Assembly: GCF_022201045.2 (NCBI RefSeq)
Contig: NC_068557.1
Coordinates: 6,324,001 to 6,388,000, forward strand
Direction: 5' to 3'
Length of the DNA: 64,000 nucleotides
Source: Citrus sinensis
Taxonomy: Eukaryota; Streptophyta; Magnoliopsida; Sapindales; Rutaceae
Shown: positions 17,769-39,363 of the stretch, one piece after another
How positions within the stretch are numbered: the first letter of the stretch is position 1
Layout: every line of letters begins with the position of its first letter
Translations under genes and position numbers: made by a program
Notes under the pieces: generated by a model
Seen by the model: the letters and a program-made list of their open reading frames with translations, nothing else
Databases searched by the model: none
What the model was told of the DNA's origin: nothing

Positions 17769-18499
17769 TGAACCAAAGAAACAGACATCAGAATATATCC
17801 ATAATTATTACCTTAAAATATTAATTAAACCAAACAAAATATTAACTTAACCAGGATCTCTAGATACATCAAAAATAGAAAAGGAATTATAATAATTTTA
17901 CCTTAACAGAGTGATGAGGGGGCCATTTATCGAAGAAAAATGCCACCCACAGATAAAGAAGAGAGAAAAAAAAAGACGAAGCGACGAGAGAGTCGGTGGG
18001 TAGAGAGAAAGAGAGAGGAAATTTCTCTCCTCTCTCTCTCTCTCATCTTTATCTGCGGTCTGCACCAAGCTATCCTTATGGTTATGGAATTGAAGATGAA
18101 GAAAGAAATGTTCTAGGGTTGAAGCAGGACTCTCCTTTTTATAGTTGTGATTGATAATTAAAATGATGGCGGCGGGAATTGAATATGAAGAAAGAAATGG
18201 TCTAGGGTTGAAGCAGAGGCTCTCCTTTTTATAGTGGGCATGGCTACAGAACATGCATGTATGTGATACATGCAAGCAATAAAAAAACAGGAAATAAGCA
18301 GAGCACTTGGCAGCCAAACACCAAAAACAAACAAAAAAAAAAAAAAATAACTGGGAGCAACCGGATTTTGCAACCGGTTGCCCCTTAAATAAATTAAATG
18401 ATAATAAATATAATAATATTTAATTATAAAAATAAAATAATAATTATTATTTTAATATTAAAGGACATAACAAAAAAAATTATTTTTATAATAATAAAA
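17769..18499. other. Low-complexity and short-repeat sequence
   Basis: Contains a purine-rich (GAGA)-type stretch at about 17940-18045. It also holds a roughly 90-bp imperfect direct repeat (about 18090-18143 and 18180-18234; AAGAAAGAAATG(T/G)TCTAGGG then CTCTCCTTTTTATAG). A GCAACCGG/CCGGTTGC inverted motif lies near 18357-18382. A 40-bp block at 18137-18176 recurs in the same orientation at 42088-42127. The minus-strand frames here are compositional. Confidence 0.55.
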
Positions 18500-20790
18500 A
18501 AGGAGTTTCAAGTTTAATGGTATAGGTATTAAGTTAATGGTATTCATTTCATATTTATTGGTTCATTAATTTCATTATTTTCATGGTTGCGAGTAATAAT
18601 CTCATGTTTCATGTTTATTGTTCTAAGTTTTAATTTCCTTCAGTTTCAAGCTTAATGGTCAATGTATTAACTTAATAATCATGATTTCATGTTTATTGGT
18701 CCATTAATTTAATGATTTTCATGGTTGCAAGTTAATGATAACATGTTTCATGTTTATTGCCCTCCGTTTCACGTTTAATGGTTCGGGTATCAAGTTAATG
18801 GTTATGGTTTTACGTTTATTGGTCAATTAATTAAATGATTTTCATGGTTGCAAGTTAATGATCTCATGTTTCACGTTTATTGCCTTAAGTTTCAAATTCA
18901 ATGGTTTAGGTATCCAGTTAATAGTTATGATTTTATGTTTATTGGTCCATTAATTACATAATTTTTTAGGTTGCAAGTTAATGATCAGATGTTTCATGTT
19001 CATTACCCTAAGTTTCCAGTTTATTAATTTAATCATTTTCATGGTTGCAAGTTAATAATCTCATATTTCAGGTTTATTACCTTAAGTTTTAAGATCACTG
19101 GTTTCAAGTTTATTGATTTAGGTATCACTTTAATGGTCATGATTTCATGTTTATTGGTCCATTAATTAAATAATTTTGAAGGTTGCAAGTTAATGATTAG
19201 AAGTTTCATGTTCATTGCCATAAGTTTCAAGTTTATTAATTTAATCATTTTCATGGTTGCAAGTTAATGATCTCATGTTTCACGTTTATTGCCCTAGGTT
19301 TAAAGTTCATTGGTTTCAAGTTTAATGGTTTAGGTATCAAGCTAATAGTCATGATTTCATGTTTATTGATCCACTAATTAAATAATTTGCGAGGTTGCAA
19401 GTTAATGATCTCACGTTTCATGTTTATTGCCCTAAGTTTCAAGTTTATTAATTTAATTATTTTCATGGTTGCAAGTTAATGATCTCATATTTCACGTTTA
19501 TTGCCTTAAGTTTCAAGTTCACTGGTTTCAAGTTTATTGGTTTTGGTATCAAGTTAATGGTCATAATTTCATATTTATTGGTCAATTAATTAAATAATTT
19601 TGAAGGTTGTAAGTTAATGATCAGAAGTTTCATGTTCATTACCATAAGTTTCAAGTTTATTAATTTAATCATTTTTATGGTTGCAAGTTAATGATCTCAT
19701 ATTTCACGTTTATTACCTTAAGTTTTAAGTTCACTAGTTTCAAGTTTATTGGTTTCGGTATCAAGTTAATGGTCATGATTTCATGTTTATTGGTCCATTA
19801 ATTAAATAATTTTGAAGGTTGCAAGTTAATGATCAGAAGTTTCATGTTCATTGCCATAAGTTTCAAGTTTATTAATTTAATCATTTTCATGGTTGCAAGT
19901 TAATGATCTCATATTTCACGTTTATTCATGTTTCACGTTTATTGCCTCAGGTTTCAAGTTCATTGGTTTCAAGTTTAATGGTTTAGGTATCAAGTTAATG
20001 GTCATGATTTCATGTTTATTGATCCACTAATTAAATAATTTGCGAGGTTGCAAGTTAATGATCTCACGTTTCGTGTTTATTGCCCTAAGTTTCAAGTTTA
20101 TTAATTTAATTATTTTCATGGTTGCAAGTTAATGATTTCATATTTCACATTTATTGCCTTAAGTTTTAAGTTCACTGGTTTCAAGTTTATTGGTTTCGAT
20201 ATCAAGTTAATGGTCATGATTTCATATTTATTGGTTCATTAATTAAATAATTTTAAAGGTTACAAGTTAATGATCAGAAGTTTCATGTTCATTGCTCTAA
20301 GTTTCAAGTTTATTAATTTAATCATTTTTATGGTTGCATGTTAATGATCTCAAGTTTTACGTTTATTGCCCTAAGTTTCAAGTTCATTGGTTTCAAGTTC
20401 ATTCGTTTCAAGTTAATGGTTTAGGTATCAAGTTAATGGTCATGATTTCATGATTATTGGTCCATTAATTAAATAATTTGCAAGGTTGCAAGTTAATGAT
20501 CTCATGTTTCGTGTTTATTGTCCTCAGTTTCAAGTTTATTAATTTAATTATTTTCATGGTTGCAAGTTAATGATCTAATGTTTCATGTTTATTGCCATAA
20601 ACTTCAAGTTAATGATGACATGTTTCATGTCTATTGGCCTTAGTTTCATGTTCCTTTAGTTTCATGTTTAGTGGTCTATGTATCAAGTTAATGGTTATGT
20701 TTTCATGTTTATTGGTAAAAAATTGCATGATTTTCATGGTGCAAATTAATGATCTCATGTTTAAAGTTAATGATTTAATGTTCCTTTAGT
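18500..20790. repeat. Minisatellite, about 2.3 kb
   Basis: Imperfect tandem array built of phrases such as GGTATCAAGTTAATGGTCAT, TTTCATGTTTATTGGTCCAT, GGTTGCAAGTTAATGATC and TTTCAAGTTTATTAATTTAA. The GGTATCAAGTTAATGG anchor recurs near 18530, 18665, 18789, 18910, 19109, 19334, 19545, 19757, 19987, 20199, 20426 and 20681. Spacing is about 121-135 bp in the first four units, then about 200-255 bp. No open frame runs through it. Confidence 0.9.
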
Positions 20791-26092: not shown

Positions 26093-27030
26093 TCAACCAA
26101 GAAACCACATAAGGCGAATAAGAGAGCATACCACATACGATTTGTTGGTAATAATTCCAAGAGTATCCATAAATTTGATGACGTAAACTCCACAATCAAA
26201 ACCGTTAGGTTGCTGAGGAACTCTTTCCCCATGGGTCACTACAAATGATAAGAAACTCCAAACTACTGAATATGTAGCATCCATGACACTATGGAGTATA
26301 GCATCCAATGAGTGTAACTATTTTCAAGTGCAAAAATACATCACATATATTAATAAACAATACACAGAAAACTAAACTCATCTTTTTTAGCAAAAATTGG
26401 TACCAGCCCAACTTTCGATTTCTGTATGGCCGAGGAGGGCTTCAAGACAGTGGATTAAAATCTTACGGTTGTTGACATTTCTTCACTTGTTGCGCGGAAG
26501 ACTACATATTTATTTAAGACAAAGAAAGAAGAAAGATTAGACTAAAGGGAAATTATCATTTGTATACCCTATATTTGATCTGTTATAAAAAATACTACAA
26601 CACTTTGAGGGTGTATCAATCGTCCACCCTTAGTTGACAAAATGTATCAGCTGACCACCAAACCGTTAGTTTTTGTTTGAAAGTTAACGGAATTACAGTG
26701 AATTGACGATTTTACCCTTGAAAATTATCACTTGTATCATATGAAAAGACCAAATTACCCTTCTAACATCATCATATTTAAACGGCAACTAACGGTTTGG
26801 TGGTCAGTTGATACATTTTGTCAACTTTGAGTGGACGATTGATACATTCTCAAAGTGTTGTAGTCTTTTTGAAAATGGGGTAAACTAAGGGTATACAAAT
26901 GATAATTTCCCTTAGACTAAATCATATATAGTTTAGACAACAATTAACAAATTATTACTCTATGTATACCTCATCTTCAAGTTCCGGCACCAATTTAGGC
27001 TTCATCGCGTCTTGCAATACTCATGCTAAC
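26093..27030 (-). pseudogene. Ulp1-like (C48) cysteine protease, C-terminal part, broken
   Basis: The minus-strand frame at 26308-26093 contains VPQQPNGFDCGVYVIKFMD, the Gln...Asp-Cys-Gly segment of Ulp1/SENP-type SUMO proteases with the catalytic Cys. The preceding catalytic His/Asp part is not intact, and a 365-bp MITE (26547-26911) interrupts the region upstream. The rest of the gene resumes on the other side of the LTR retrotransposon (39364-41288), which is inserted exactly at 27030/27031. Ulp1-like genes are often carried by plant Mutator-like elements, so this fits the neighbouring FAR1 transposase. Confidence 0.75.
26547..26911. mobile_element. 365-bp fold-back MITE with a 10-bp target duplication
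   Basis: The left end GGGAAATTATCATTTGTATAC and the right end GTATACAAATGATAATTTCCC are reverse complements. The inverted arms extend further (CAACACTTTGA, GTATCAATCGTCCAC, AATGTATCAGCTGACCACCA against their complements on the right). TTAGACTAAA occurs at 26537-26546 and again at 26912-26921, a 10-bp target duplication. A 9-10 bp duplication with long inverted repeats suggests a Mutator-like MITE. It lies inside the decayed Ulp1 region. Confidence 0.9.
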
Positions 27031-27449
27031 TGTTTTCAACTGGTTTTGGGGTAAGAAAAGCCAAACCAATCTAGAACAATAAATTTGTTATTTTGAGGGG
27101 AGATGGGGTACCTCACTGGTTTATTGTGTGTTGGGCGGTGTATCTAAGATTTTGGGGAGGTGAGAAAGGGAGAGAGAGTGGTAACAATGGTGGAAGATCA
27201 GAAACAAGAGAGGTATCCTTCAAAATGAGCTTCACGCCTGCAAAACAATGAAATAGAGGTTAGAGGTGAAGCCGGGGGTACCCCGACGTTCACACTCCGA
27301 CGCTCAAGTTAGCAAACTCAAGCTTTTATTGCAAAGAGAGCTAGCTAGCCCTCTGTAAATTAGGGTTTAAGGTTGAAGAAAACCTCTTTTTTGGAGTGTG
27401 AGTGTTTTTGGGCGAATGAGAGCATGATGGAGAATGAAACCTAGGCGCC

Positions 27450-27457
27450 TTTATATA
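27450..27457 (-). promoter_or_regulatory. LTR TATA box (left LTR)
   Basis: TATATAAA on the minus strand, about 625 bp into the LTR in the element's direction, in a GGCGCC-rich context. It is the only good TATA match between the U3 array and the rest of the LTR. It is the likely U3/R promoter; the start site is not mapped. Confidence 0.7.
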
Positions 27458-27813
27458 TGGAGTACCTTAGCTGCCACGTGGCGTACCCTTTTTGGCTAAC
27501 GTCCTTTTACCGCTTTTATGATTCTTGGGGCCGTTATGTGCATGTTCGCGGCGTATCTCATCTTTTGGAAACGTGGCGCGCGCTGGAGAGTGGTCCAGGG
27601 TACCTCTGCAGTAGCTGTCGGGTAGGCGGCTAGGGACCACTGTCCTTGGGACAGTGTCCTTCACTTTTGGCAGAGGTAGCAGACGGCTGTCTCTCCTTTT
27701 AGCACGTCGCTTTTGATTCCTAATTCTGACAAAATCAAATGATATCTTTTAGGAGGCGGAGACGTTTCTCATGGCGGATATTTTCGGTGGATTCTCTTGC
27801 ATCCGCTTTGCCG

Positions 27814-28009
27814 GGTACCTCGAATTACATGGGGTACCCCCTATTACGCAGGGTACCCCTATCTGTATGGGGTACCTCTATTTGTATGGGGTACCTCTAT
27901 TTGTATGGGGTACCTCTATTTGTGTGGGATACCTCTAATTGTGCAGGGTACCTCTATTTATACGGGGTACCTCAAGTCATGTCGGGCACCTCGGATTATG
28001 TAGGGTACC
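27814..28009. promoter_or_regulatory. 19-bp array of GGTACC palindromes in U3 (left LTR)
   Basis: Eleven motif positions are spaced exactly 19 bp apart: 27814, 27833, 27852, 27871, 27890, 27909, 27928, 27947, 27966, 27985 and 28004. Nine are perfect GGTACC. 27928 is GATACC and 27985 is GGCACC. The 13-bp spacers vary (TCTATTTGTATGG, TCTAATTGTGCAG, TCAAGTCATGTCG and others), so the palindrome is better kept than its surroundings. Position in U3 suggests an enhancer-like or protein-binding array, which is inference. Confidence 0.9.
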
Positions 28010-28082
28010 TCCGATTGTGATGATATCATTCCATTGGCTGACACGTGACGCTCTATTACCTTTCCTATCTTTCCCTCAAACA

Positions 28083-28103
28083 ACATCCCCCTAGTTTCTT
28101 TTT
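28083..28103 (-). other. Polypurine tract (PPT)
   Basis: Directly inside the left LTR the minus strand reads AAAGAAACTAGGGGGATGT, a purine-rich stretch at the place where plus-strand DNA synthesis is primed in LTR retrotransposons. Confidence 0.85.
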
Positions 28104-28736
28104 GGCGAGAAGTATTGGAGGCAAAAGAAACTCATTGTATGAGTGACACGTGGCGATGCGGCTGGACCGGAGGGTACCTTGCTTAGCTTCTTCCCTTAAC
28201 TAAACTTTGTGTACTTCAAACTAAAAATCTTCTCTTTGTCTTTTCCTTTTCCCGCTTTTTTTTTTTTTTTTGGCCGACGTCCTCCTTTGCATTTTTCCGG
28301 CGTCGGTTCTTCTTGGTGGCTGCAGCTGCGGCGGTCGGCGTTGGTTCTCGGTGGTTGCAGCCATTACAGCCGACTCCGGTTACTGCAGCTTCTTCGTTCT
28401 TCATTTTATTTACTTATTTATAAATAATTATATATATTTAAGCTTATTTTTATTTTTATACTTGCATATTTTTACCCACTATTTTTGGTTGCCTGCAGCT
28501 TCATTTCGCCGCGATTATCAATCCCGATCTGTTGAATTGGTGAATCACAGGTATCCCTCCTCGCTTCTCCTCTTTTGGCGCATTCACAGTGGCGCTATTT
28601 TGCATACTCTGAGAAAATTTTGTTTTTGGTTTTTGTTGTTTTTTTTTTGTTTTGTTGGTTGGTGTTTGCATTTGGTGGTTGATGTGTGGTGGATGGTGCT
28701 TGGTATGGATATATTGCTGTTTGGAAAACATGTGGC
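28104..28736. other. Internal 3' region of the Tat element, no coding assigned
   Basis: Sequence between the PPT and the G-rich repeat. Several overlapping frames are open on both strands because of biased composition, and none resembles a known protein. It probably includes the promoter/leader of the antisense ORF. Confidence 0.5.
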
Positions 28737-28970
28737 TTGTTGGATGTGTTGTTGGGGGCTTGTGGATATGTTGTTGGGTGTATCGTTGGGTGTATTGTTG
28801 GGTGTATTGTTGGGGAACTTGTGGATGTGCTGTTGGGAGCTTGTGGATGTGCTGTTGGGGAACTTGTGGGTGTGTTGTTGGGTGTATTGTTGGGGAACTT
28901 GTGGATGTGCTGTTGGGGGCTTGTGGATGTGCTGTTGGGGAACTTGTGGGTGTGTTGTTGGGGAAAAGTA
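28737..28970. repeat. G/T-rich tandem repeat, about 22-23 bp units
   Basis: Repeated (G/T)TGTTGGG(G)(A/G)(A/G)CTTGTGG(A/G)TGTG units, with shorter TGTTGGGTGTATTG units. The array keeps several frames open on both strands (Val/Cys/Trp/Gly-rich on plus, His/Gln/Pro/Thr-rich on minus), explaining the overlapping long frames here. It ends just before the ATG of the antisense ORF. Confidence 0.85.
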
Positions 28971-28971
28971 G

Positions 28972-31275
28972 ATGGGCAAAAAGCACACGAGACCCCCGAT
29001 GAAGCGACGTAAAGTTGGGGCTAGTAGGGTTGACAACCCTCCTGCAGGTTCCCCTTCCCACATCTCCATCAGCGAGGGGGATCGGTCCCCCCCTAGTTCC
29101 TCTAGGAGTCGCAATTCTCGTTCTGAGCCCCCTCCTCCTAGGAGTACCCCTCGTGTCAGCCCACGCTTTCCTAGTAGACGGCCTACCCCCCATCCTCGAA
29201 AGAAGGGTAAGCCAACCAAGCCTAAAGTTCCAGCTCGTTCCTCTGACCAACCGCCTAAATCTCCCCCTGCCACACCTTAAAAATCTAGCAACCCTTTTTC
29301 CCTAGGCATTAGGAGGGCTACTTTGGGGGAGTTGGAGCAAATTAGAGCCAAATACAATATTCCTCCGTCTGTCCAGCTTAGGGTACCCCATGTGAATGAG
29401 CGACCCGAGTGTCCAAAGTCTGATGGGATTACTCTCCATATCGACCTCTTCGATCTAGGACTCCGCCTGCCCCTCCAACCATTCTTTATGAAAATGTTTA
29501 GTTATTTGGGGGTAGCTCCTGGGCAGCTGTCCCTTCCAGGGTGGAGGACACTGACGGGCTTACATGTGTTATGGTTGGAGGTCGTGAAGCGCGACATTTC
29601 TGTTCGGGAGTTGAGGGGCCTTTACCAATTCAAGAAGCCTAAGGGTCCCGGCATTGCTTACTTCTCCCCCTGGGGTGATCATGGCCACATCGTTGAGGGG
29701 AACCCCGCCTTAAAGAAGGGTTACCGAAAGGGATGGTTTGTCGCTGAGGGTAGGTGGGGGACAGAGACTCTAGGTGAGAAGGGCGACCCCGTGGAGGTTC
29801 CTCATTCCTTCAATGTAGACTGTAAGTATCTCCCTTACTTATGGTTTTTCATCGGAATCTTTCGCCTGAATGTCTCACTAACCTTGAGTTCTTTATGCTT
29901 TCGCAGGTGTGACATGGGCTAAAGGATCATGCCCAGTTCAGGAGGTGGGGAGAGAGGTGAAGAAATTTATGGACAGGCTTCGAGGTGCACAGAGGGGTAG
30001 TGATGTGCTGGAGGAGAGCCGATTATGGAGAGCGGGGCTGATTGACCGAAGTCCTACACCTGCTCCTGGGGGTGACTCATGTATGATTTGGGTGTCGGGG
30101 GGATCCTATTATTACTTATGGGACTGGGGTACCCCATTATTATTGCATTCTTCGTTTCGCTTCTCCGCTTTCCATTTCTTATTTTTACTTTTGCAGTAGT
30201 TAGTACTTGTCCAGCTAACATAACTTTTGTGCATTGGGTGCAGTCATGGAATCGACGGGTGATGCTTTCGACGCCTTCTTCCAAGCGGTAGTGGGCGGTG
30301 CTTCCGGATCTCAGGATTCGGCGGTACCCCCGAAAGGCTCCCGACCTCCTCGAGCTCCCGGTCCAAAGGGAAAATCTCAGGGTACCTCCCACAGCGGGTC
30401 AAAGGGTACCCCTCGCTCGAAGAAGAGAAAATTCGGGCTGGTTTCTACTTTCCCCGATGAGTTACGTGAGGGTGACTTAGACCCGGCTTCTAACAAGGAG
30501 GTTTCGCACTTGGCTCGCCACTTTTACTACTCTGCTGAAAATGTTACCTCCGAGGTTGCTGAAGAGGTTGACAAGATGAGCTTGAGCCAGCGTTATGGTC
30601 AAGCACTTAGGGCTACCCAAGAGGTAGGCTTTCTTGGGGTACCCCGGGTGTACTCTTCATCATTTTCTTTTTACTTATTTGATCTTTTCGCCATACACAT
30701 ATATTTAACATGTCTTGCATGACCCGCAAGCATCCTTTCTCCTTAGCCACTGCCTTCCGGATCTCGACTCCCTTGTTGCCGCACAGTCAGAGGTCGACAA
30801 GTTAAGGAGTGAGCTTCAAAGCCGTCAATCTCGTGAGGATCAGCTCGCTCGAGAAGTTAAAACTCTGCAAGAACGCATTGCTGGCCTATCGGGAGAGAAA
30901 GCTAGGGTGGAGAAGGATTGTGAGGAGTTGAGGGCCACCAACGGGGATCTGCTATCTCGGCAAAAGACGATGGCGGAGGATGCATTCTCACTCATCATGA
31001 CAGAGGTGTGGAGTGTGGATCCGACGTTGGAGGTACCCCGCGTGCAGAAATTTGTCAACAAGGCTGCCATTCTGAAGACAATTGCGGAGCGGAAGAAGTC
31101 TTCCCAGGCACGGTCGGGTACCCCTTCTGGGTCACCTGGGGTACCCCATCAGCCTCAGTCGTTGCCCGCCTCGGATGCCCCTATTTCGGCGGCTCATATT
31201 CCGGGTACCTCGGAGTCTTCTGCCGATCGCCCTCTAGAGACAGATGTTGGGGATCGCGTTCCCCCCTCGGTGTAG
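28972..31275 (+). CDS. Antisense additional ORF (aORF) of the Tat element, four exons, one in-frame stop
   Basis: It lies opposite to gag-pol in the 3' internal region. Exons are 28972-29821, 29907-30071, 30244-30623 and 30787-31275. The introns have GT-AG ends (donors GTAAGT, GTGACT, GTAGGC) and all phases join, giving 628 codons including the stop. The N-terminus (residues 1-100) is very basic and Pro/Ser-rich (MGKKHTRPPMKRRK). TAA at 29278-29280 interrupts the frame at codon 103, after which it continues open. The middle (about 115-285) holds LGELEQIRAKYNIP, LHIDLFDLGLRLPLQPFF and a WRTL...FSPWGDHG-type segment. I associate this with the 'putative gypsy type transposon' (Transposase_28-like) domain found antisense in Tat elements. 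The C-terminal exon carries a heptad-rich coiled coil (SEVDKLRSELQSRQSREDQL, about residues 465-535). Role unknown; a nuclear nucleic-acid-binding protein is plausible from its basic and coiled-coil parts. Confidence 0.75.
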
Positions 31276-32363
31276 CCTTCTCACTGTGCTCTTGTTTATC
31301 GGATCTATCCACATTTTGCTATTTGGACCTTGTTTATTTCTTTTTGGTTTCTCGGGATATTTTGTTTTATTGAGACTTCTCTTTTGTTATGATACCATGC
31401 CATCTAGTCCTCTTGTACTTTGCATTATTCTGCAAATGAATGCTTGGCTAAACTGTTATCTTACAAATTCCTAGGGTACCTCTCATTTCATCATTTTTTT
31501 TAAAATGGGGTACCCCTGGTACCTTAACAAGTATTCAACATCAGGCGCCTGCTGGTTTACACTGAGCGGCGAATTTGGTGCATGCCCTCCTCGGCAACCA
31601 TGGCGGATTTTCCACAAATAGGTAATCAAAACATCGTCGCGACATCTCGATCAAAAATTGAAAGTGCGCAATTGGTCCAACCAATCAATTTCTTATTCTT
31701 TCGAAGTGCTCTCCGAATTTTTGAATAGCTTACCCCATACTTTGCAAAAGTACGAGGATGGAGGTGTGGGTGTTCTCATACCTAAGCCGAACTTCGTGCC
31801 GCTAGGGTATGCCGGTTTTTCTTCACCCTCGGGTCCTCTTTGACCCTCCCTCTCTTTGTCTAGGTAGCTTTGTCATGCTTCCGCAGAAAGGCTACCCCTG
31901 GGCTGTTCACTCCATTGCCTATCTTGGCTTTACACAGATCGTCACGATCTAGGCATATCAAGTACCTTGGCTGGTCCTGTGATAGGTTAGTCATAACTGA
32001 CAAGCGTATGGCGAGAATTGCATATAACCAGATGCGAGGGTATATTAACGGCGATAAATGAATGTAATCTGCATTCTAAGATCGAAGTGGCGAAAAATAA
32101 AGAAAGAACTCACATCATATTTGTTGAGAAAGAAAATGCATTTATAGATAACGAAAGCGTTGATCAATACATGACTTAGCTTTGTTACCCTGAGGAGAAT
32201 GAGAGACCGCAAGACCTCCTATTCTTTTCATTTGAAAATTAAAGAAACTCTAAAGTTGTAACTGACCAACATAGGACATTTGGGGTACCCTATTTGGCCT
32301 ACCACACAAAAACATTAAAGAAAGCAAATAACAGCAAAAGACTAAAGGTTGAGACACTGTCCT
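31276..32363. other. Internal region between aORF and pol ends, non-coding
   Basis: Tail-to-tail region between the aORF stop and the end of the integrase frame. Contains several GGTACC sites (for example near 31475, 31508, 31518 and 32283). No coding family seen. Convergent transcripts from gag-pol and aORF would overlap here. Confidence 0.5.
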
Positions 32364-32627
32364 TTAGTAATATTTCCGTACCATTGCAGCGTTCCAGGGG
32401 TGCCTCACAATTGTGCCATCCATGTGGAGTAGCCTGTATGCACCTGTCCCAACGGGTTTGTCGATGCGGTAAGGTCTTTCCCAATTTGCCCCGAAAGCAC
32501 CTTCGTAGGGTACCCTAGTGTTCTGAGTTACCTTTCTCAAGACTAAGTCTCCTTTCTTGAAGGATCGAGGGCGTACCCTTTTTTCATATAGACCCGAAAT
32601 GCGATGCTGATATATGGCTGTCCTCAG
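32364..32627 (-). pseudogene. Integrase C-terminal tail cut off by an in-frame stop
   Basis: The minus strand continues in the pol frame past the TAA at 32630-32628 to TAA at 32366-32364. This adds about 87 residues with the expected integrase C-terminal features (KKGDLVLRKV and an ANWERPYRI-like segment). The single stop appears to be a GAA-to-TAA change in an otherwise intact domain. Confidence 0.8.
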
Positions 32628-35600
32628 TTATGCTCTAGCCCTTTTTTCAGCCACCAAATCAAGGTTTGAAGCAACCAAGGAGGTGTTCTCGGCCTCATCG
32701 AAGTATTCAACCCTGTGAGAGGGTACCCCGATTTCTGCTGGAATCACTGCGTCAACACCGAATGCGAGGGAAAACGGGGTCTCCCTGGTGGAGGTGTTTT
32801 GAGTAGTCCGGTATGCCCACAGTACGCCAGGTAGCTCGTCTACCCATGCTCCCTTTCTTTCCTCTAGCTTCTTCTTCAGGATACCTTTGATAATCTTGTT
32901 AACGGCTTCGACTTGCCCATTAGATTGGGGGTGGGCAGGTGTAGCAAATCGGTTGGCTATCCCCAACTCCGAACAAAATCTTCGGAATTTTTCATTATCG
33001 AATTGCTTGCCGTTATCACTGACAATTGCATAGGGGATTCCAAATCTGCAAATGAGGTTCTTCCAAATGAATTCGGTGGTTTTCCTTTCTGTGATGCTTG
33101 TTAGTGGCTCCGCTTCCGCCCATTTTGTAAAATAATCTACTGCCACGATTGCATGTTTTGCTTGCCCCTTTCCGGTAGGCAACGGGCCAATGAGGTCCAC
33201 TCCCCACATAGCGAAGGGCCAAGGGGAAGATATAACTGTTAGCTTCTCTGGGGGTAGATGGGGTACCCTAGCGAACCTCTGGCATTTGTCACAGCTTCGT
33301 ACCATATTCTTGGCATCCTCCCGCATGGTTGGCCAGTAGTACCCCTGACGGAGAGCTTTTTGCGCCAGTGATTGTGCTCCATAGTGATTGCCACAAATCC
33401 CCTCATGTATCTCCCTCATGACATACTTGGCCTCGTCGCTTCCCAAGCATCTAAGGTAAGGAAGAGTGAACCCTCTTCTATATAGGGTATCCTGGATCAG
33501 GCAATACTGGGCAGCTTTATACTTTAGTCTTCTCGCTTCACTTTTATCTGAGGGGAGGTCTCCGTCCTTGAGGTGCCTTATGATAGGCTCCATCCAAAGT
33601 ACCTCGTTGGACAGTGATCCTACTTCCAACGGCTCTAGGAGATCAATGCTGGGGGCGGGTATGTGTTCTGTTGTGATGGGGCCAGCTGACTGAGCTACAC
33701 CAAGGGACGCCATTTTTGCTAGGGTATCGGCTTCGCTGTTCTCCAGTCGGGGTACCCTTTCCACTTTAACTTCGCAAAATTGGGACATCAATTCTCTGGT
33801 TTTTTCGAGGTACCCCTTCATGTTTTCCTCTTTCGCCTGATATTGTGCGGTAATCTGGCTTACCACCAACTGTGAGTCACTCTTGACGTGTACCCTTTTT
33901 GCTCTCAAAGCCTTTGACATCCTCAACCCCGCTATGATTGCCTCATACTCGGCTTCGTTGTTTGAAGCCTTGAATCCGAATTGCAGGGCGTAGCATATTT
34001 TCACCTTGTTCGGGTCGATGATAATAACTCCTGCGCCACTTCCGCGTGAGTTAGAGGAACCATCTACATATATTTCCCAGACCTGCTCCTCTTCATCGGT
34101 GGGTAGGGTATCTAACAGATATCTCAGATCACATTCACCACTTGAGTCATTGGCGAATTCCGCAATGAAATCAGCAATGGCCTGAGCTTTAATCGCCGAA
34201 CGAAGCTTGAAGATGATGTCGAACTCGCTTAATTCGAGGGACCATCGGAGAAGCCTTCCGGACATGTCTAACTTCTGAAGGATTTGCCGGAGGGGAAGGT
34301 TGGTGACGACTGCAATGGTGTGAGCCTGAAAATATGGTCTGAGCTTCCGTGCGGAGACAACCAATGCCAAAATGATCTTTTCAGAGGTGGGGTACCTTTT
34401 TTCGGCATCAACCATAGCCTTACTAGTGTAGTAAATAGGTCGTTGTACCCCATTATCATCCTCTCGGAGTAACACAGAGCTGGTGGCATGCTCGGATACG
34501 GCGAGATATAGCAGCAGCACCTCTCCCGGCTCAGGTTTGGCAAGTAGTGGAGCATTCACGAGGTACCCCTTCAGTTCTTGGAAAGCCTCTTCGCAATCGG
34601 GTGTCCATTGGAGCTTTTTACCGGTCTTCAAAGCTTTGAAAAAGGGCTTACACCGGTCGGTAGCCTTGGAGATAAAACGGCTCAGAGCAGCTACCCGGCC
34701 TGCCAAACTTTGAACCTCCTTGATGGTGCTTGGCGATTTCATGTCAAGAACTGTGCGAATTTTATCGGGGTTGGCTTCAATCCCCCGTTGTTGTACCATG
34801 AACCCGAGAAACTTTCCCGAGGTTACCCCGAATGCACATTTTTCAGGGTTTAGCCGCATCTGATGTTTTCTCAAAACGGTAAAGGTATCTCTGAGGTGCC
34901 CCAGGTGTTCCCCCGCATGCACCGATTTGGTGATCATGTCGTCTATGTACACCTCCATGGTGCGCCCGATTTGTTCTTTGAAAATTTTGTTCACTAGTCG
35001 CTGGTAGGTAGCCCCGGCATTCTTCAAACCAAACGGCATAACCTTATAACAGTATAACCCCCGGTTGGTGATGAAGGCTGTTTTCTCTTGATCGGGTTCG
35101 TACATCGGGATTTGGTTGTACCCGGAGAAGGCGTCCATAAAACTAAGCATTTCATGCCCCGCTGTTGCATCAACCAGCTGGTCCACCCGAGGAAGCGGGA
35201 AGCTATCCTTGGGGCAGGACTTATTCAAGTCGGTGAAGTCCACGCACATGCGCCACTTTCCGTTTGATTTCTTGACAAGAACAACGTTGGACACCCAATC
35301 GGGGTACACTGCTTCTCGAATAAACCGTGCTGCTAATAGGCGGTCTACCTCTTGTTCAATTGCATCGTACCTCTCTTGATTGAAGGCGCGACGCTTCTGT
35401 TTGACCGGTTTATTATGCGGGCTGACATTGAGTTTGTGACATGAGAGAGAATGTGGGATACCCGGCATATCCAAGTGGGTCCAAGCAAATACATCGAGGT
35501 GCTCACATAGGAAGGTGATGAGTTTCTCCCTTTGTTCCTCCGAGAGGTTGGAGCCTACTTTCACTGTCTTTGTTGGGTCGGTGGCGCAAATCGAGACTGA

Positions 35601-38228
35601 AATAAGATCTTCAACTGGGGTACCCCGCATTTCATCTTTCAATATTCGGGGATCCAAAGGTGCCTCAACTTCACATCTGGGCTCCTCCTGGTCCCCGTGG
35701 GGTACCCTCGAGCTATCCCCCGTAACTGCTTCCATCCCCCTTGGTGAAAACTCCAACTTTTCTCGTGGGTGGGCTACTTGAGGAGATTTTTTCAGTACTG
35801 TTCTCCGCTGTCTAGCAAGTGCTCGCTTTGAGGGGGAAGGTGTGGGCTGGCTGCCACTAGGGTACCCCTTCATTGGCGGATCTGAAGCTATTTGGTAAGT
35901 GACTTTGGAGGCCACGGAATAACATCCACGAGCCGATTGCTGGTCCCCTTTAATGGTGATAACTTCTTGGGCGGCCGGGACTTTCATGGTGAGGTAGTGC
36001 ATGGATACCACCGCTTTAGTTGCTACTAAGAACGGCCTACCCAATATAATATTGTAGGCACCCGGGTGATCTACAATAAGAAAATCAATCATATGAACAA
36101 CACGGTGAGGTACCTTACCAAGTGTAACGGGCAGCGTAATGATGCCTTTTGGTATAACCATATCTCCGGCGAACCCAATAAGAGGCGTAGCATATGGGGT
36201 GATCTTTGGCGACTCAATCAATAGTTGATCCAAGGCGCTTTTGAAAATAATGTCAACGGAGCTACCGGTATCTACGAGAGTTCTTGCTACCTTACCAGTG
36301 GCAACCTTCAACGTAATTACGAAGGCATCGTCGTGGGGGTACGAGATGCCCTCCGCATCTTTTTCTGTAAAAAGGATAGGCGGGGGATGGTGGGGTACCT
36401 TCGGTGTACCCCATTCATTAAGGTTAACTTCTCTGCCCATATTGGTGGTTATCGACAACGATCTACCATAGCCTTTGATAGCCCTCCTAGATTGGCCCGC
36501 TAAAGTCGGTCCGCCCATGATCATTCGGACATACACGCCTTTCTTGTGTCCAGGGGGTACCTCTCGTTCGAGACTGCCATCAGCTACCCGCTTGCCTTTA
36601 TCATGTTCCGCAGATTTCCGAGCTTCTCTCATGCCAGCAACAAATTCTTTGAGGTACCCGCTGAGAATCAAAGATTCAATTTCTTCTCGCAAGGTGAAGC
36701 ACTTGGCTGTGCTGTGACCAAAGTCCTCATGGAACTCGCAATACTTCAGGTTACGCTTCATGTTGGGGTACTTCTTCATTGGCTTAGGAGGGCGGAGGAG
36801 GCCACTATCCCGAATATGGTAGAAGATCTGCTCTGGGGATCGATTCAGTGGGTGGTAAGATTCATACCGAGGCCTCGGCGGTGGCTCTCGCTGATCCGGT
36901 GGTGGCGATCTTGGAGGTTGGGGTACCCTTGAGGCACCCTGAGGGTTATACCCTCGTCCCCGCAAGGCAGCCCGTGGAGGGCTCCGTGCTCGGGGCACCC
37001 GCGGTATTGGGGCCTCCACCCTCTTGGGCTTCTCCTTGTTCTTTGTAACATCGGCCTTATCTTCTTGGCGCTTCAATTGGCATTTTTCGTCCATCTCCAC
37101 TTGTTGCAACGCCCGAGAACGGGTTTCCCCATATGAAAGTGGACGCTTCTTTTGAAAAGAACGCCATAACTTGCCCAACCGTAAATTTTTCTCAAAATGG
37201 GTCAATGTGTATTGGTTTCCAAATGCTCCGGTCCGCAGCACCTCTTGGTGGAAACGACTTACATACTCCGCCAAAGGCTCGGCTTCCCCTTGCTTGATAA
37301 AGGCAAGTTTGGAGGCTACCCTATCTTGAGTGGAAGCATAGGAAAACTCTTTAGTAAATTCAGATAACAATTGGTGTAAGGAAGATATGCTACCCGCCTT
37401 CAAAGAGCGAAACAATGACTTCGCGGGGCCCGTGAGTGTGTGTGTAAACATCCTATACATGGAGCTCTCATCTACACCCTTAATAAGCATTTGGTCACGG
37501 TATAGCTCAGCATGCTCCGAGGGATCAGTGGTACCCGAGTATTGGGGTATCTGAGGCATGGCAAACGCCTCGGGGAGAGCTGCTGTCCTAATCTCCATAG
37601 TGAATGGCGATTGGAAGGTCATTGGCGTTGGTGCAGCTGTGATGTTTTGCTTCTCGGAGAGGAGCTTCACTTGGGCTTCCAGGTTCTCCATCTTTTCCAC
37701 AAGTTCGAGGGGTACCCTCGGTGTACCTGATGATGTCGCCGTCATTTGAGAAGCCCTTTTGGCGTTTAACTTCTCACGGATATCCTCGTGGGTACGCTTT
37801 GCACGCCTCGTACCCTGGCTACTGCGGGAATTGCAAGAGGCGGTGGAACGCTCATCGCGGGAGCCCATGGTTTGAAACTTAGAACGGGTACCCGATGGCC
37901 TAGGCTTTGGCTTGCTGGCCTCGGGAACCCCTCTTCTGACCATAGCTTGGTCGTCCGTTTGAGGTGGTGGAGCTTCTAGCGTCACTGGTGGAAGTGAACT
38001 TTCGGGTGCCCGAGATCCAACCGCCCTAAGTATTGCGTGAGCAAGATCCTCAAAACGCTTGTGCGAAATAGGTTCTTCTTCTTGGCGAACACCCGTCGAC
38101 TGCTTGACACCCTTGCCCTTACTGATGCGGGCTACCCTTCTCGCGGGATCACTGCCTTCACTGCTGCTGTCCTCTCTCATCCTTGTAGGATCCCCCATTA
38201 AACCTTCGGGAGGTACGTCGGGTGCCAT
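32628..38228 (-). CDS. gag-pol: Tat-type Gag-Pol polyprotein, 1866 aa to the first stop
   Basis: A single frame encodes the structural and enzymatic proteins for reverse transcription and integration. The first ATG (38228-38226) is 78 bp from the LTR; the frame is open a little further upstream but only through a TTG. Order with approximate residues: Gag core (FAMPQIPQYSGTTDPSEH about 220, then the capsid-like helical region), a Cys/His knuckle-like CEFHEDFGHSTAKC (about 500), aspartic protease with LVDTGSS (about 650), reverse transcriptase with YIDDM (about 1093), a degenerate RNase H, and a second RNase H (YVDGSS about 1388, then NEAEYEAI and SDSQLV). Integrase follows with an H-H-C-C finger (CDKC about 1650) and the catalytic D...D...E series (WGVDLIG about 1674, VSDNGKQF about 1739, NGQVEA about 1776). 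The frame ends at TAA 32630-32628 just before the integrase C-terminal domain. The rest is open and uninterrupted, fitting a young insertion. Confidence 0.95.
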   Translation of the reverse strand: MAPDVPPEGLMGDPTRMREDSSSEGSDPARRVARISKGKGVKQSTGVRQEEEPISHKRFEDLAHAILRAVGSRAPESSLPPVTLEAPPPQTDDQAMVRRGVPEASKPKPRPSGTRSKFQTMGSRDERSTASCNSRSSQGTRRAKRTHEDIREKLNAKRASQMTATSSGTPRVPLELVEKMENLEAQVKLLSEKQNITAAPTPMTFQSPFTMEIRTAALPEAFAMPQIPQYSGTTDPSEHAELYRDQMLIKGVDESSMYRMFTHTLTGPAKSLFRSLKAGSISSLHQLLSEFTKEFSYASTQDRVASKLAFIKQGEAEPLAEYVSRFHQEVLRTGAFGNQYTLTHFEKNLRLGKLWRSFQKKRPLSYGETRSRALQQVEMDEKCQLKRQEDKADVTKNKEKPKRVEAPIPRVPRARSPPRAALRGRGYNPQGASRVPQPPRSPPPDQREPPPRPRYESYHPLNRSPEQIFYHIRDSGLLRPPKPMKKYPNMKRNLKYCEFHEDFGHSTAKCFTLREEIESLILSGYLKEFVAGMREARKSAEHDKGKRVADGSLEREVPPGHKKGVYVRMIMGGPTLAGQSRRAIKGYGRSLSITTNMGREVNLNEWGTPKVPHHPPPILFTEKDAEGISYPHDDAFVITLKVATGKVARTLVDTGSSVDIIFKSALDQLLIESPKITPYATPLIGFAGDMVIPKGIITLPVTLGKVPHRVVHMIDFLIVDHPGAYNIILGRPFLVATKAVVSMHYLTMKVPAAQEVITIKGDQQSARGCYSVASKVTYQIASDPPMKGYPSGSQPTPSPSKRALARQRRTVLKKSPQVAHPREKLEFSPRGMEAVTGDSSRVPHGDQEEPRCEVEAPLDPRILKDEMRGTPVEDLISVSICATDPTKTVKVGSNLSEEQREKLITFLCEHLDVFAWTHLDMPGIPHSLSCHKLNVSPHNKPVKQKRRAFNQERYDAIEQEVDRLLAARFIREAVYPDWVSNVVLVKKSNGKWRMCVDFTDLNKSCPKDSFPLPRVDQLVDATAGHEMLSFMDAFSGYNQIPMYEPDQEKTAFITNRGLYCYKVMPFGLKNAGATYQRLVNKIFKEQIGRTMEVYIDDMITKSVHAGEHLGHLRDTFTVLRKHQMRLNPEKCAFGVTSGKFLGFMVQQRGIEANPDKIRTVLDMKSPSTIKEVQSLAGRVAALSRFISKATDRCKPFFKALKTGKKLQWTPDCEEAFQELKGYLVNAPLLAKPEPGEVLLLYLAVSEHATSSVLLREDDNGVQRPIYYTSKAMVDAEKRYPTSEKIILALVVSARKLRPYFQAHTIAVVTNLPLRQILQKLDMSGRLLRWSLELSEFDIIFKLRSAIKAQAIADFIAEFANDSSGECDLRYLLDTLPTDEEEQVWEIYVDGSSNSRGSGAGVIIIDPNKVKICYALQFGFKASNNEAEYEAIIAGLRMSKALRAKRVHVKSDSQLVVSQITAQYQAKEENMKGYLEKTRELMSQFCEVKVERVPRLENSEADTLAKMASLGVAQSAGPITTEHIPAPSIDLLEPLEVGSLSNEVLWMEPIIRHLKDGDLPSDKSEARRLKYKAAQYCLIQDTLYRRGFTLPYLRCLGSDEAKYVMREIHEGICGNHYGAQSLAQKALRQGYYWPTMREDAKNMVRSCDKCQRFARVPHLPPEKLTVISSPWPFAMWGVDLIGPLPTGKGQAKHAIVAVDYFTKWAEAEPLTSITERKTTEFIWKNLICRFGIPYAIVSDNGKQFDNEKFRRFCSELGIANRFATPAHPQSNGQVEAVNKIIKGILKKKLEERKGAWVDELPGVLWAYRTTQNTSTRETPFSLAFGVDAVIPAEIGVPSHRVEYFDEAENTSLVASNLDLVAEKRARA

Positions 38229-38287
38229 GTATTGGAGTACACACAACAACTAGTTTGGTAACCGTGGAGGAGGCTTTTTGTGCGTCT

Positions 38288-38304
38288 CCCCATAGACGGC
38301 GCCA
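38288..38304 (-). other. Primer-binding site (PBS)
   Basis: Two bases inside the right LTR the minus strand reads TGGCGCCGTCTATGGGG. Its first nine bases match the CCA-terminated 3' end expected of a plant tRNA such as tRNA-Asp (ACGGCGCCA). The remainder is imperfect, so the exact primer tRNA is uncertain. This proximity to the LTR sets the element's direction. Confidence 0.8.
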
Positions 38305-38725
38305 ATTGTTTTCAACTGGTTTTGGGGTAAGAAAAGCCAAACCAATCTAGAACAATAAATTTGTTATTTTGAGGGGAGATGGGGTACCTCACTGGTTTAT
38401 TGTGTGTTGGGCGGTGTATCTAAGATTTTGGGGAGGTGAGAAAGGGAGAGAGAGTGGTAACAATGGTGGAAGATCAGAAACAAGAGAGGTATCCTTCAAA
38501 ATGAGCTTCACGCCTGCAAAACAATGAAATAGAGGTTAGAGGTGAAGCCGGGGGTACCCCGGCGTTCACACTCCGACGCTCAAGTTAGCAAACTCAAGCT
38601 TTTATTGCAAAGAGAGCTAGCTAGCCCTCTGTAAATTAGGGTTTAAGGTTGAAGAAAACTTCTTTTTTGGAGTGTGAGTGTTTTTGGGCGAATGAGAGCA
38701 TGATGGAGAATGAAACCTAGGCGCC

Positions 38726-38733
38726 TTTATATA
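38726..38733 (-). promoter_or_regulatory. LTR TATA box (right LTR), probable gag-pol promoter
   Basis: Same TATATAAA as in the left LTR, at the matching offset. In the 5' LTR it would initiate the genomic RNA about 400 bp before the PBS. The start site is inferred. Confidence 0.7.
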
Positions 38734-39089
38734 TGGAGTACCTTAGCTGCCACGTGGCGTACCCTTTTTGGCTAACGTCCTTTTACCGCTTTTATGATTC
38801 TTGGGGCCGTTATGTGCATGTTCGCGGCGTATCTCATCTTTTGGAAACGTGGCGCGCGCTGGAGAGTGGTCCAGGGTACCTCTGCAGTAGCTGTCGGGTA
38901 GGCGGCTAGGGACCACTGTCCTTGGGACAGTGTCCTTCACTTTTGGCAGAGGTAGCAGACGGCTGTCTCTCCTTTTAGCACGTCGCTTTTGATTCCTAAT
39001 TCTGACAAAATCAAATGATATCTTTTAGGAGGCGGAGACGTTTCTCATGGCGGATATTTTCGGTGGATTCTCTTGCATCCGCTTTGCCG

Positions 39090-39285
39090 GGTACCTCGAA
39101 TTACATGGGGTACCCCCTATTACGCAGGGTACCCCTATCTGTATGGGGTACCTCTATTTGTATGGGGTACCTCTATTTGTATGGGGTACCTCTATTTGTG
39201 TGGGATACCTCTAATTGTGCAGGGTACCTCTATTTATACGGGGTACCTCAAGTCATGTCGGGCACCTCGGATTATGTAGGGTATC
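39090..39285. promoter_or_regulatory. 19-bp array of GGTACC palindromes in U3 (right LTR)
   Basis: The copy of the left-LTR array at the same 19-bp spacing. The last unit here is GGTATC instead of GGTACC, so eight of eleven are perfect. In the element's direction it lies about 73-268 bp into the LTR, well upstream of the TATA box. Confidence 0.9.
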
Positions 39286-39363
39286 TCCGATTGTGCTGAT
39301 ATCATTCCATTGGCTGACACGTGGCGCTCTATTACCTTTCCTATCTTTCCCTCAAACACTAAC

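Follow-up and report, generated by a model that had tools for sequence, protein, structure and literature searches.

A densely dispersed GGTACC palindrome in a Retand/Tat-type retrotransposon of Citrus sinensis and a second dispersed word in related families

Short DNA words that mark a transposable element as its own have been described in the VANDAL elements of Arabidopsis, which are Mutator-like element (MULE)-type DNA transposons. Passages of three studies (PMC5735166, PMC10398659, PMC12859917) describe an element-encoded protein, VANC, that reads a short element-specific word, often found in tandem arrays and differing between related families. The target sites are non-coding, and the relevant passages of PMC5735166 report that VANC21 bound coding-region probes without its motif much less efficiently. 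The Retand lineage of plant long terminal repeat (LTR) retrotransposons provides a second point of comparison. In the passages considered, a survey of this lineage (PMC11963269) predicts DNA binding for the Transposase_28 domain and leaves its target and function open, and both this survey and PMC7264820 state that the function of the antisense Transposase_28 open reading frame (ORF) and of the tandem repeats is unknown in these plants. Here, we describe an LTR retrotransposon on the minus strand, at 27031-39358 of a 64,000-nt stretch of Citrus sinensis contig NC_068557.1 (the window), which is densely filled with the palindrome GGTACC. Its exact borders are set by the 5-bp duplication CTAAC, and its two LTRs, 1052 bp each with TG..CA ends, differ at 5 positions. 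The order of gag-pol, with reverse transcriptase (RT), RNase H and integrase, is that of Ty3/gypsy, and an antisense ORF with a Transposase_28-like domain, which matches PF04195 weakly, lies between pol and the 3' LTR. Judged by its LTRs, domain order and antisense ORF, the element is assigned to the Retand/Tat type of Ty3/gypsy LTR retrotransposons.

An earlier note on this DNA had counted about 56 GGTACC sites in the element and about six elsewhere, with about three expected by chance. Exact counting returned 56 sites inside the element and 6 in the remaining 51.7 kb, and dinucleotide shuffles of the element yielded a mean of 2.6 and a maximum of 8 (200 shuffles). Both flanks lie near expectation under the same shuffling (upstream 3 vs 2.0, downstream 3 vs 1.7). 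GGTACC tops all hexamer palindromes in the element, the next ones reaching 8. The claim that the sites occupy LTRs, gag-pol, antisense ORF and non-coding parts agrees with the counts by compartment: 12 in the 3' LTR, 1 between this LTR and the antisense ORF, 10 in the antisense-ORF region, 5 from its end to the gag-pol stop, 17 in gag-pol, 0 in the 57-bp leader and 11 in the 5' LTR. The raw total must be read with the caveat that the two near-identical LTRs contribute 23 of the 56, most of them from a 19-bp tandem array; the non-redundant count, taken over the 5' LTR and the internal region, is 44. Across the genome (300 Mb in 11 contigs), from which all copies and families were read, GGGTACC occurs 15,982 times on both strands and its reversed control 20,324 times, which shows that the word is not common in general. 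The element holds 78 GGGTACC in 12.3 kb, roughly a hundredfold the genome density.

The proposal that this excess acts on the nucleic acid and not on the protein is strongly supported by codon and dinucleotide controls and by related copies. All three reading frames of gag-pol are used, as had been noted, with 3, 5 and 9 sites. Against the 17 observed sites, codon shuffling of gag-pol produced a mean of 3.6 and a maximum of 9 (2000 shuffles), and a chain preserving both codon and dinucleotide use produced a mean of 4.3 and a maximum of 10 (1099 non-independent samples). GGTACC fills 17 of the 24 amino-acid-compatible positions (about 70%), compared with 62 of 1145 for the remaining 63 palindromes. 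In the antisense ORF, the open frames contain 9 sites compared with 1.7 after shuffling (maximum 6 in 1000 shuffles). The window's family (F1) was compared with four related families of the same genome (F2-F5). The diverged F2 keeps the density, an outcome that favors the earlier proposal: an F2 copy has 42 sites in 12.6 kb, 22 in gag-pol compared with 4.4 after codon shuffling, and 6 in the antisense ORF compared with 1.0. In its gag-pol, GGTACC fills 22 of 33 compatible positions, and the remaining 63 palindromes together fill 84 of 1272. The corresponding figures of 2/11 in F3, 1/14 in F4 and 0/9 in F5 reveal no excess. Since allowed positions are more numerous in F1 and F2 (24 and 33) than in F3-F5 (11, 14 and 9), amino acids also seem to have moved, and 14 of the 19 sites private to the F1 or F2 copy coincide with an amino-acid difference or a gap. 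Selection on GGTACC at the DNA level is well supported by these comparisons.

The RT search scored 150 of 5346 candidates, and further families are therefore likely. By tree, the 30 best RT loci all belong to F1 or F2, and they carry 8-15 GGTACC per 3.6 kb. F2 comprises 8 RT loci (RT identity 88-93%), with antisense ORFs, 57-63% identical, found near 6 of them. RT identity is 75% for F3, whose antisense ORF is about 36% identical, 73% for F4 and 72% for F5. Between the F1 and F2 copies, identity around RT is 76%, with an RT nonsynonymous divergence (dN) of 0.036 and a synonymous divergence (dS) of about 2.2, a rough value because dS near 2 is saturated. Only 10 of 29 gag-pol GGTACC sites are common to the F1 and F2 copies; at such saturated synonymous divergence, sites therefore turn over while density persists. 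Around RT, 23 columns hold a site in at least 2 of the 30 copies; 8 are occupied in both groups, 10 in F1 only and 5 in F2 only, with 3 of the 23 falling in an F2 gap. Gains and losses were mapped by presence/absence parsimony with one tie-breaking rule, on trimmed columns (20 for GGTACC) and a tree with F3 and F4 as the outgroup. Internal branches showed 24 gains and 6 losses, and terminal branches 10 gains and 15 losses. Over 1983 hexamers with a mean count of at least 0.7, internal gains averaged 4.4 (standard deviation 2.5), and only the overlapping GGGTAC (26) exceeded GGTACC. By blastn (E 1e-10), the F1 LTR found no match in an F2 piece containing 354 bp of the F2 LTR. GGTACC is clustered in both LTRs, 19 bp apart in F1 and as three sites 9 bp apart in F2; pairs spaced by 9 bp occur at six places in F2, some inside gag-pol, and at one in F1. 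Beyond the F2 copy, L075 and L076, with 2.1 kb of remaining LTR and flank, have 0 and 1 sites. A search for relatives in IMG/VR gave 2 stretches that fitted a pattern, and 0 of them were confirmed.

The site itself is larger than the hexamer. Over the 44 non-redundant sites, flanking positions are R at -2 in 39 and at -1 in 41, and Y at +1 in 44 and at +2 in 41, which extends GGTACC to the 10-bp palindrome RRGGTACCYY. Such a dyad would fit a dimeric protein on double-stranded DNA. In the whole genome and irrespective of the owner element, 904 places have three GGTACC separated by gaps of no more than 30 bp, compared with 31 for the reversed control. Among the matches listed, these arrays differ in linkers and steps (19; alternating 19/30; about 26-34). 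On contig C1, arrays at 4502938-4504906 and 4092740-4095195 have steps that alternate between 19 and 30 bp or are longer, and their linkers differ. Since GGTACC was the criterion for picking the 19-bp units (47 distinct ones), the conservation of their core is partly a product of that choice.

Related families carry a different dispersed word. With arrays masked, a set of about 72,000 patterns, each of seven letters including one two-fold letter, was scored, and ranks were taken among those seen at least 8 times. GGTACCY ranked 2 in F1 and 1 in F2, and CGASCAG ranked 2 in F3, 1 in F4 and 2 in F5. The sequences on which CGASCAG was discovered also served to test it, although each family by itself places it at the top of the ranking. 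It was not found in the F1 window element and stands at expectation in F2 (2 vs 1.7). In gag-pol, it exceeds codon shuffles in F3, F4 and F5 (10 vs 2.9, 14 vs 3.4 and 10 vs 2.4, respectively). An excess over the shuffles is also present in the antisense ORF of F3 (7 vs 1.1) and, weakly, of F5 (4 vs 1.1, P 0.02). Coding copies number 24 in sense and 10 in antisense orientation, compared with about 7.5 and 1.4 in shuffles, and non-coding copies number 17 and 15 in the two orientations. With a gag-RT identity of 89% to F3, F5 (L077) is not independent of it; F4, at 66%, is the better test, and none of the 14 site columns in aligned gag-RT is common to F3 and F4. Tandem-array units in F3 and F5 carry CTGCTCG. 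The F4 arrays include a 68-bp unit with CGAGCAG and a main 57-bp unit with the near-match CGAACAG. The F3 array also multiplies GCATGC. The locus L078 was considered as a hold-out family and dropped as a mosaic of F1-like gag and F3-like antisense ORF; there, F1-like gag pieces with a 140-bp duplication adjoin the F3-like antisense ORF.

These observations suggest a scheme in which RRGGTACCYY would be a binding site held at high density by selection over the whole element. A sequence-specific and probably dimeric protein would recognize it on double-stranded DNA. The antisense-ORF protein, with its basic N-terminus, Transposase_28-like domain and coiled coil, would occupy the LTR clusters and the dispersed body sites. 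Its binding would mark the copy as self, and transcription would be switched on or protected, like VANC on VANDAL; in related families, the same scheme would operate with CGASCAG and a diverged protein. We judge the chances to be about even that a protein, probably that of the antisense ORF, binds the word along the whole element to activate or protect the copy. The identity of the binder, its dimeric state and an anti-silencing or activating effect are what we infer here. The wider generalization is held more tentatively, and its chances appear somewhat below even. Each Retand-type clade would spread its own word through LTR, coding and non-coding DNA, altering proteins where needed, and the antisense Transposase_28 protein would bind it and keep copies active. 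Such a VANC-like system of independent origin in LTR elements would account for the antisense ORF as well as for the tandem arrays.

Among candidate readers of the word, the antisense-ORF protein stands first, as suggested by its presence, fast change, basic stretches, coiled coil and difference between clades. It is present in F1 to F5 and open in several copies. It evolves much faster than RT: compared with the RT value given above, dN is 0.28 in the Transposase_28-like domain and 0.45 in the coiled-coil part (dS 2.2). The protein carries basic stretches, and coiled-coil families gave weak, below-cut-off matches to its last stretch. Of 4 aligned domains, 3 matched PF04195 at E 0.05. The F1 Transposase_28-like domain is 34% identical to those of F3 and F4, so that the protein differs between the two clades, as do the words. 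This correlation comprises two clades only, and the assignment of the reader is therefore provisional. Several points weigh against the scheme. The F1 domain scored 17.9 and 18.1 bits, under the Pfam cut-off of 26.2, and none of the solved structures matches the Transposase_28-like domain. The F1 and F2 domains are only 62% identical, yet the word is common to both. The F4 antisense ORF has no significant enrichment of CGASCAG (0 vs 0.3 and 2 vs 0.6), and the sense copies in F3 coding sequence (P 0.075) and the antisense copies in that of F4 (P 0.083) are not significant alone. The contrast between GGTACC and CGASCAG rests on two clades in one genome, and a host factor could also be the reader of the sites.

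Under this last possibility, which we consider unlikely, GGTACC would be read by a transcription factor or chromatin protein of the host, and the element would have collected host sites for its transcription. The densest cluster does lie in the LTR, near or upstream of the TATA-like boxes, and many dimeric host factors suit a palindrome, as is textbook background. However, promoter sites fail to explain the occupancy of gag-pol or the excess in the antisense ORF. The related clade lacks a GGTACC excess and has another word instead, and GGGTACC is not common in the genome as a whole. A slightly less probable alternative is that the antisense-ORF protein does bind the sites but represses or counts copies, or aids complementary DNA compaction, import or integration, with no counter-silencing. 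The same sequence evidence would serve this account, and the direction of an effect is unreadable from DNA. A self-repressing protein, however, should place weaker selection on keeping such numbers of sites.

A role at the RNA level, in which Gag or an accessory protein binds the repeated sites of the genomic RNA to package or export it, appears quite improbable. The transcribed body does carry sites throughout its length, RNA is the target of accessory proteins in other LTR elements (passages of PMC10309623 report that the CERV protein is required for Cer1 RNA export), and coding CGASCAG is more often sense than antisense. Nevertheless, both orientations are in excess of the shuffles overall, non-coding CGASCAG is nearly balanced, and the GGTACC site with its flanks is symmetric, as expected of double-stranded DNA. 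An origin without function, through composition, codon usage or one GGTACC-rich ancestor, is hardly credible. The concentration of sites in the two LTR copies, mostly in the tandem array, would favor it. However, a compositional or neutral cause of the excess is ruled out by the shuffles, including the codon and dinucleotide controls, and by the cross-copy comparisons, and inheritance from one ancestor without selection is ruled out by site turnover at high synonymous divergence. The high internal gain count and the presence of clusters in dissimilar LTRs argue in the same direction. Binding of the word, probably by an element-encoded protein, remains the reading that we prefer.

The features of the element are collected in Table 1. 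The protease in gag-pol is a weak match. The gag-pol of the window copy encodes 1873 amino acids compared with 1961 in 4 other copies and is thereby 88 codons shorter, and the antisense ORF of this copy has an in-frame stop at 29278-29280. The 5' LTR array lies approximately 360-515 bp upstream of the TATA-like box at LTR position 626, and a second TATA-like match at LTR position 121 falls within the GGTACC array. A degenerate TTGTTGGGTGTG-type minisatellite (28737-28966) adjoins the antisense-ORF start upstream. Outside the element, an inverted repeat of 137 nt, 85% complementary (26545-26913), ends immediately to its left, and a large satellite-like tandem region (18387-20774) contains many overlapping periods (15 to 441 bp).

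Table 1. Features of the window element, with the pol-to-3' LTR arrays of related families in the last row
Feature	Position	Strand	Remarks
Target-site duplication CTAAC, left	27026..27030	.	equals 39359-39363
Target-site duplication CTAAC, right	39359..39363	.	equals 27026-27030
3' LTR	27031..28082	-	12 GGTACC
19-bp tandem array, 3' LTR	27814..28016	.	9 units with intact GGTACC; plus-strand upstream of antisense ORF
Antisense ORF, first coding stretch	28972..29820	+	predicted ends; basic N-terminus; 1 GGTACC
Transposase_28-like domain, in first antisense-ORF stretch	about 29311-29820	+	
Antisense ORF, middle coding stretch	30249..30644	+	predicted ends; contains SKKRK; 4 GGTACC
Antisense ORF, last coding stretch	30709..31275	+	coiled coil; 4 GGTACC
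GGTACC pair, 9 bp start to start	31509..31523	.	
gag-pol ORF (gag, protease, RT, RNase H, integrase)	32628..38249	-	17 GGTACC, three frames
5' LTR	38307..39358	-	11 GGTACC
TATA-like box TATATAAA	38726..38733	-	LTR position 626; putative promoter role
19-bp tandem array, 5' LTR	39090..39287	.	8 units with intact GGTACC
pol-to-3' LTR arrays of related families	L070 2392-3667; L077 2688-3171; L071 4810-5305		121-, 121- and 57-68-bp units, respectively

Among the matches listed, the titles and abstract openings of the open-licence literature contained no dispersed GGTACC word in a retrotransposon. The density of GGTACC represents an unusually strong natural case of selection for a DNA word inside genes. 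Related families have another word, distributed in a similar way, and each family may accordingly label its own DNA for a recognizing protein. If this is true, element-specific self-recognition arose on more than one occasion and is able to reshape coding sequence. Two clade-specific words offer a direct and cheap binding test.

The earlier note had likened the element to VANDAL transposons with their VANC proteins, and this analogy holds in part. It gains from the different dispersed word in the related clade, from the words in tandem arrays and from the F2 density at partly different sites; as in VANC/VANDAL, the word is short, element-specific and different between related families. It loses in that the sites fill coding sequence, unlike those of VANC21: 17 of the 44 non-redundant sites lie in gag-pol, whereas VANDAL target sites are non-coding. 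An element-encoded reader is demonstrated for VANC/VANDAL in the studies cited at the outset and is proposed for the window element. Moreover, the latter is an LTR retrotransposon and not a MULE-type DNA transposon, and its candidate reader, unlike VANC, has a Transposase_28-like domain, for which Pfam returned only PF04195 and no VANC-type domain, no VANC profile having been compared. The closer structural kinship is with the Retand lineage, which, in the passages of PMC11963269, likewise combines tandem repeats with an antisense ORF bearing PF04195 between pol and the 3' LTR. The stretch from pol to the 3' LTR measures 4.5 kb in the window element and 2.9-6.6 kb in that lineage; those passages report no dispersed word, unlike what is seen here. 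In sunflower, the methylome passages of PMC12844716 describe locally reduced CG and weakly raised CHH methylation along Retand elements, a pattern that would fit self-recognition. The element is VANC-like in its working, as proposed here, and is not a member of VANDAL/VANC.

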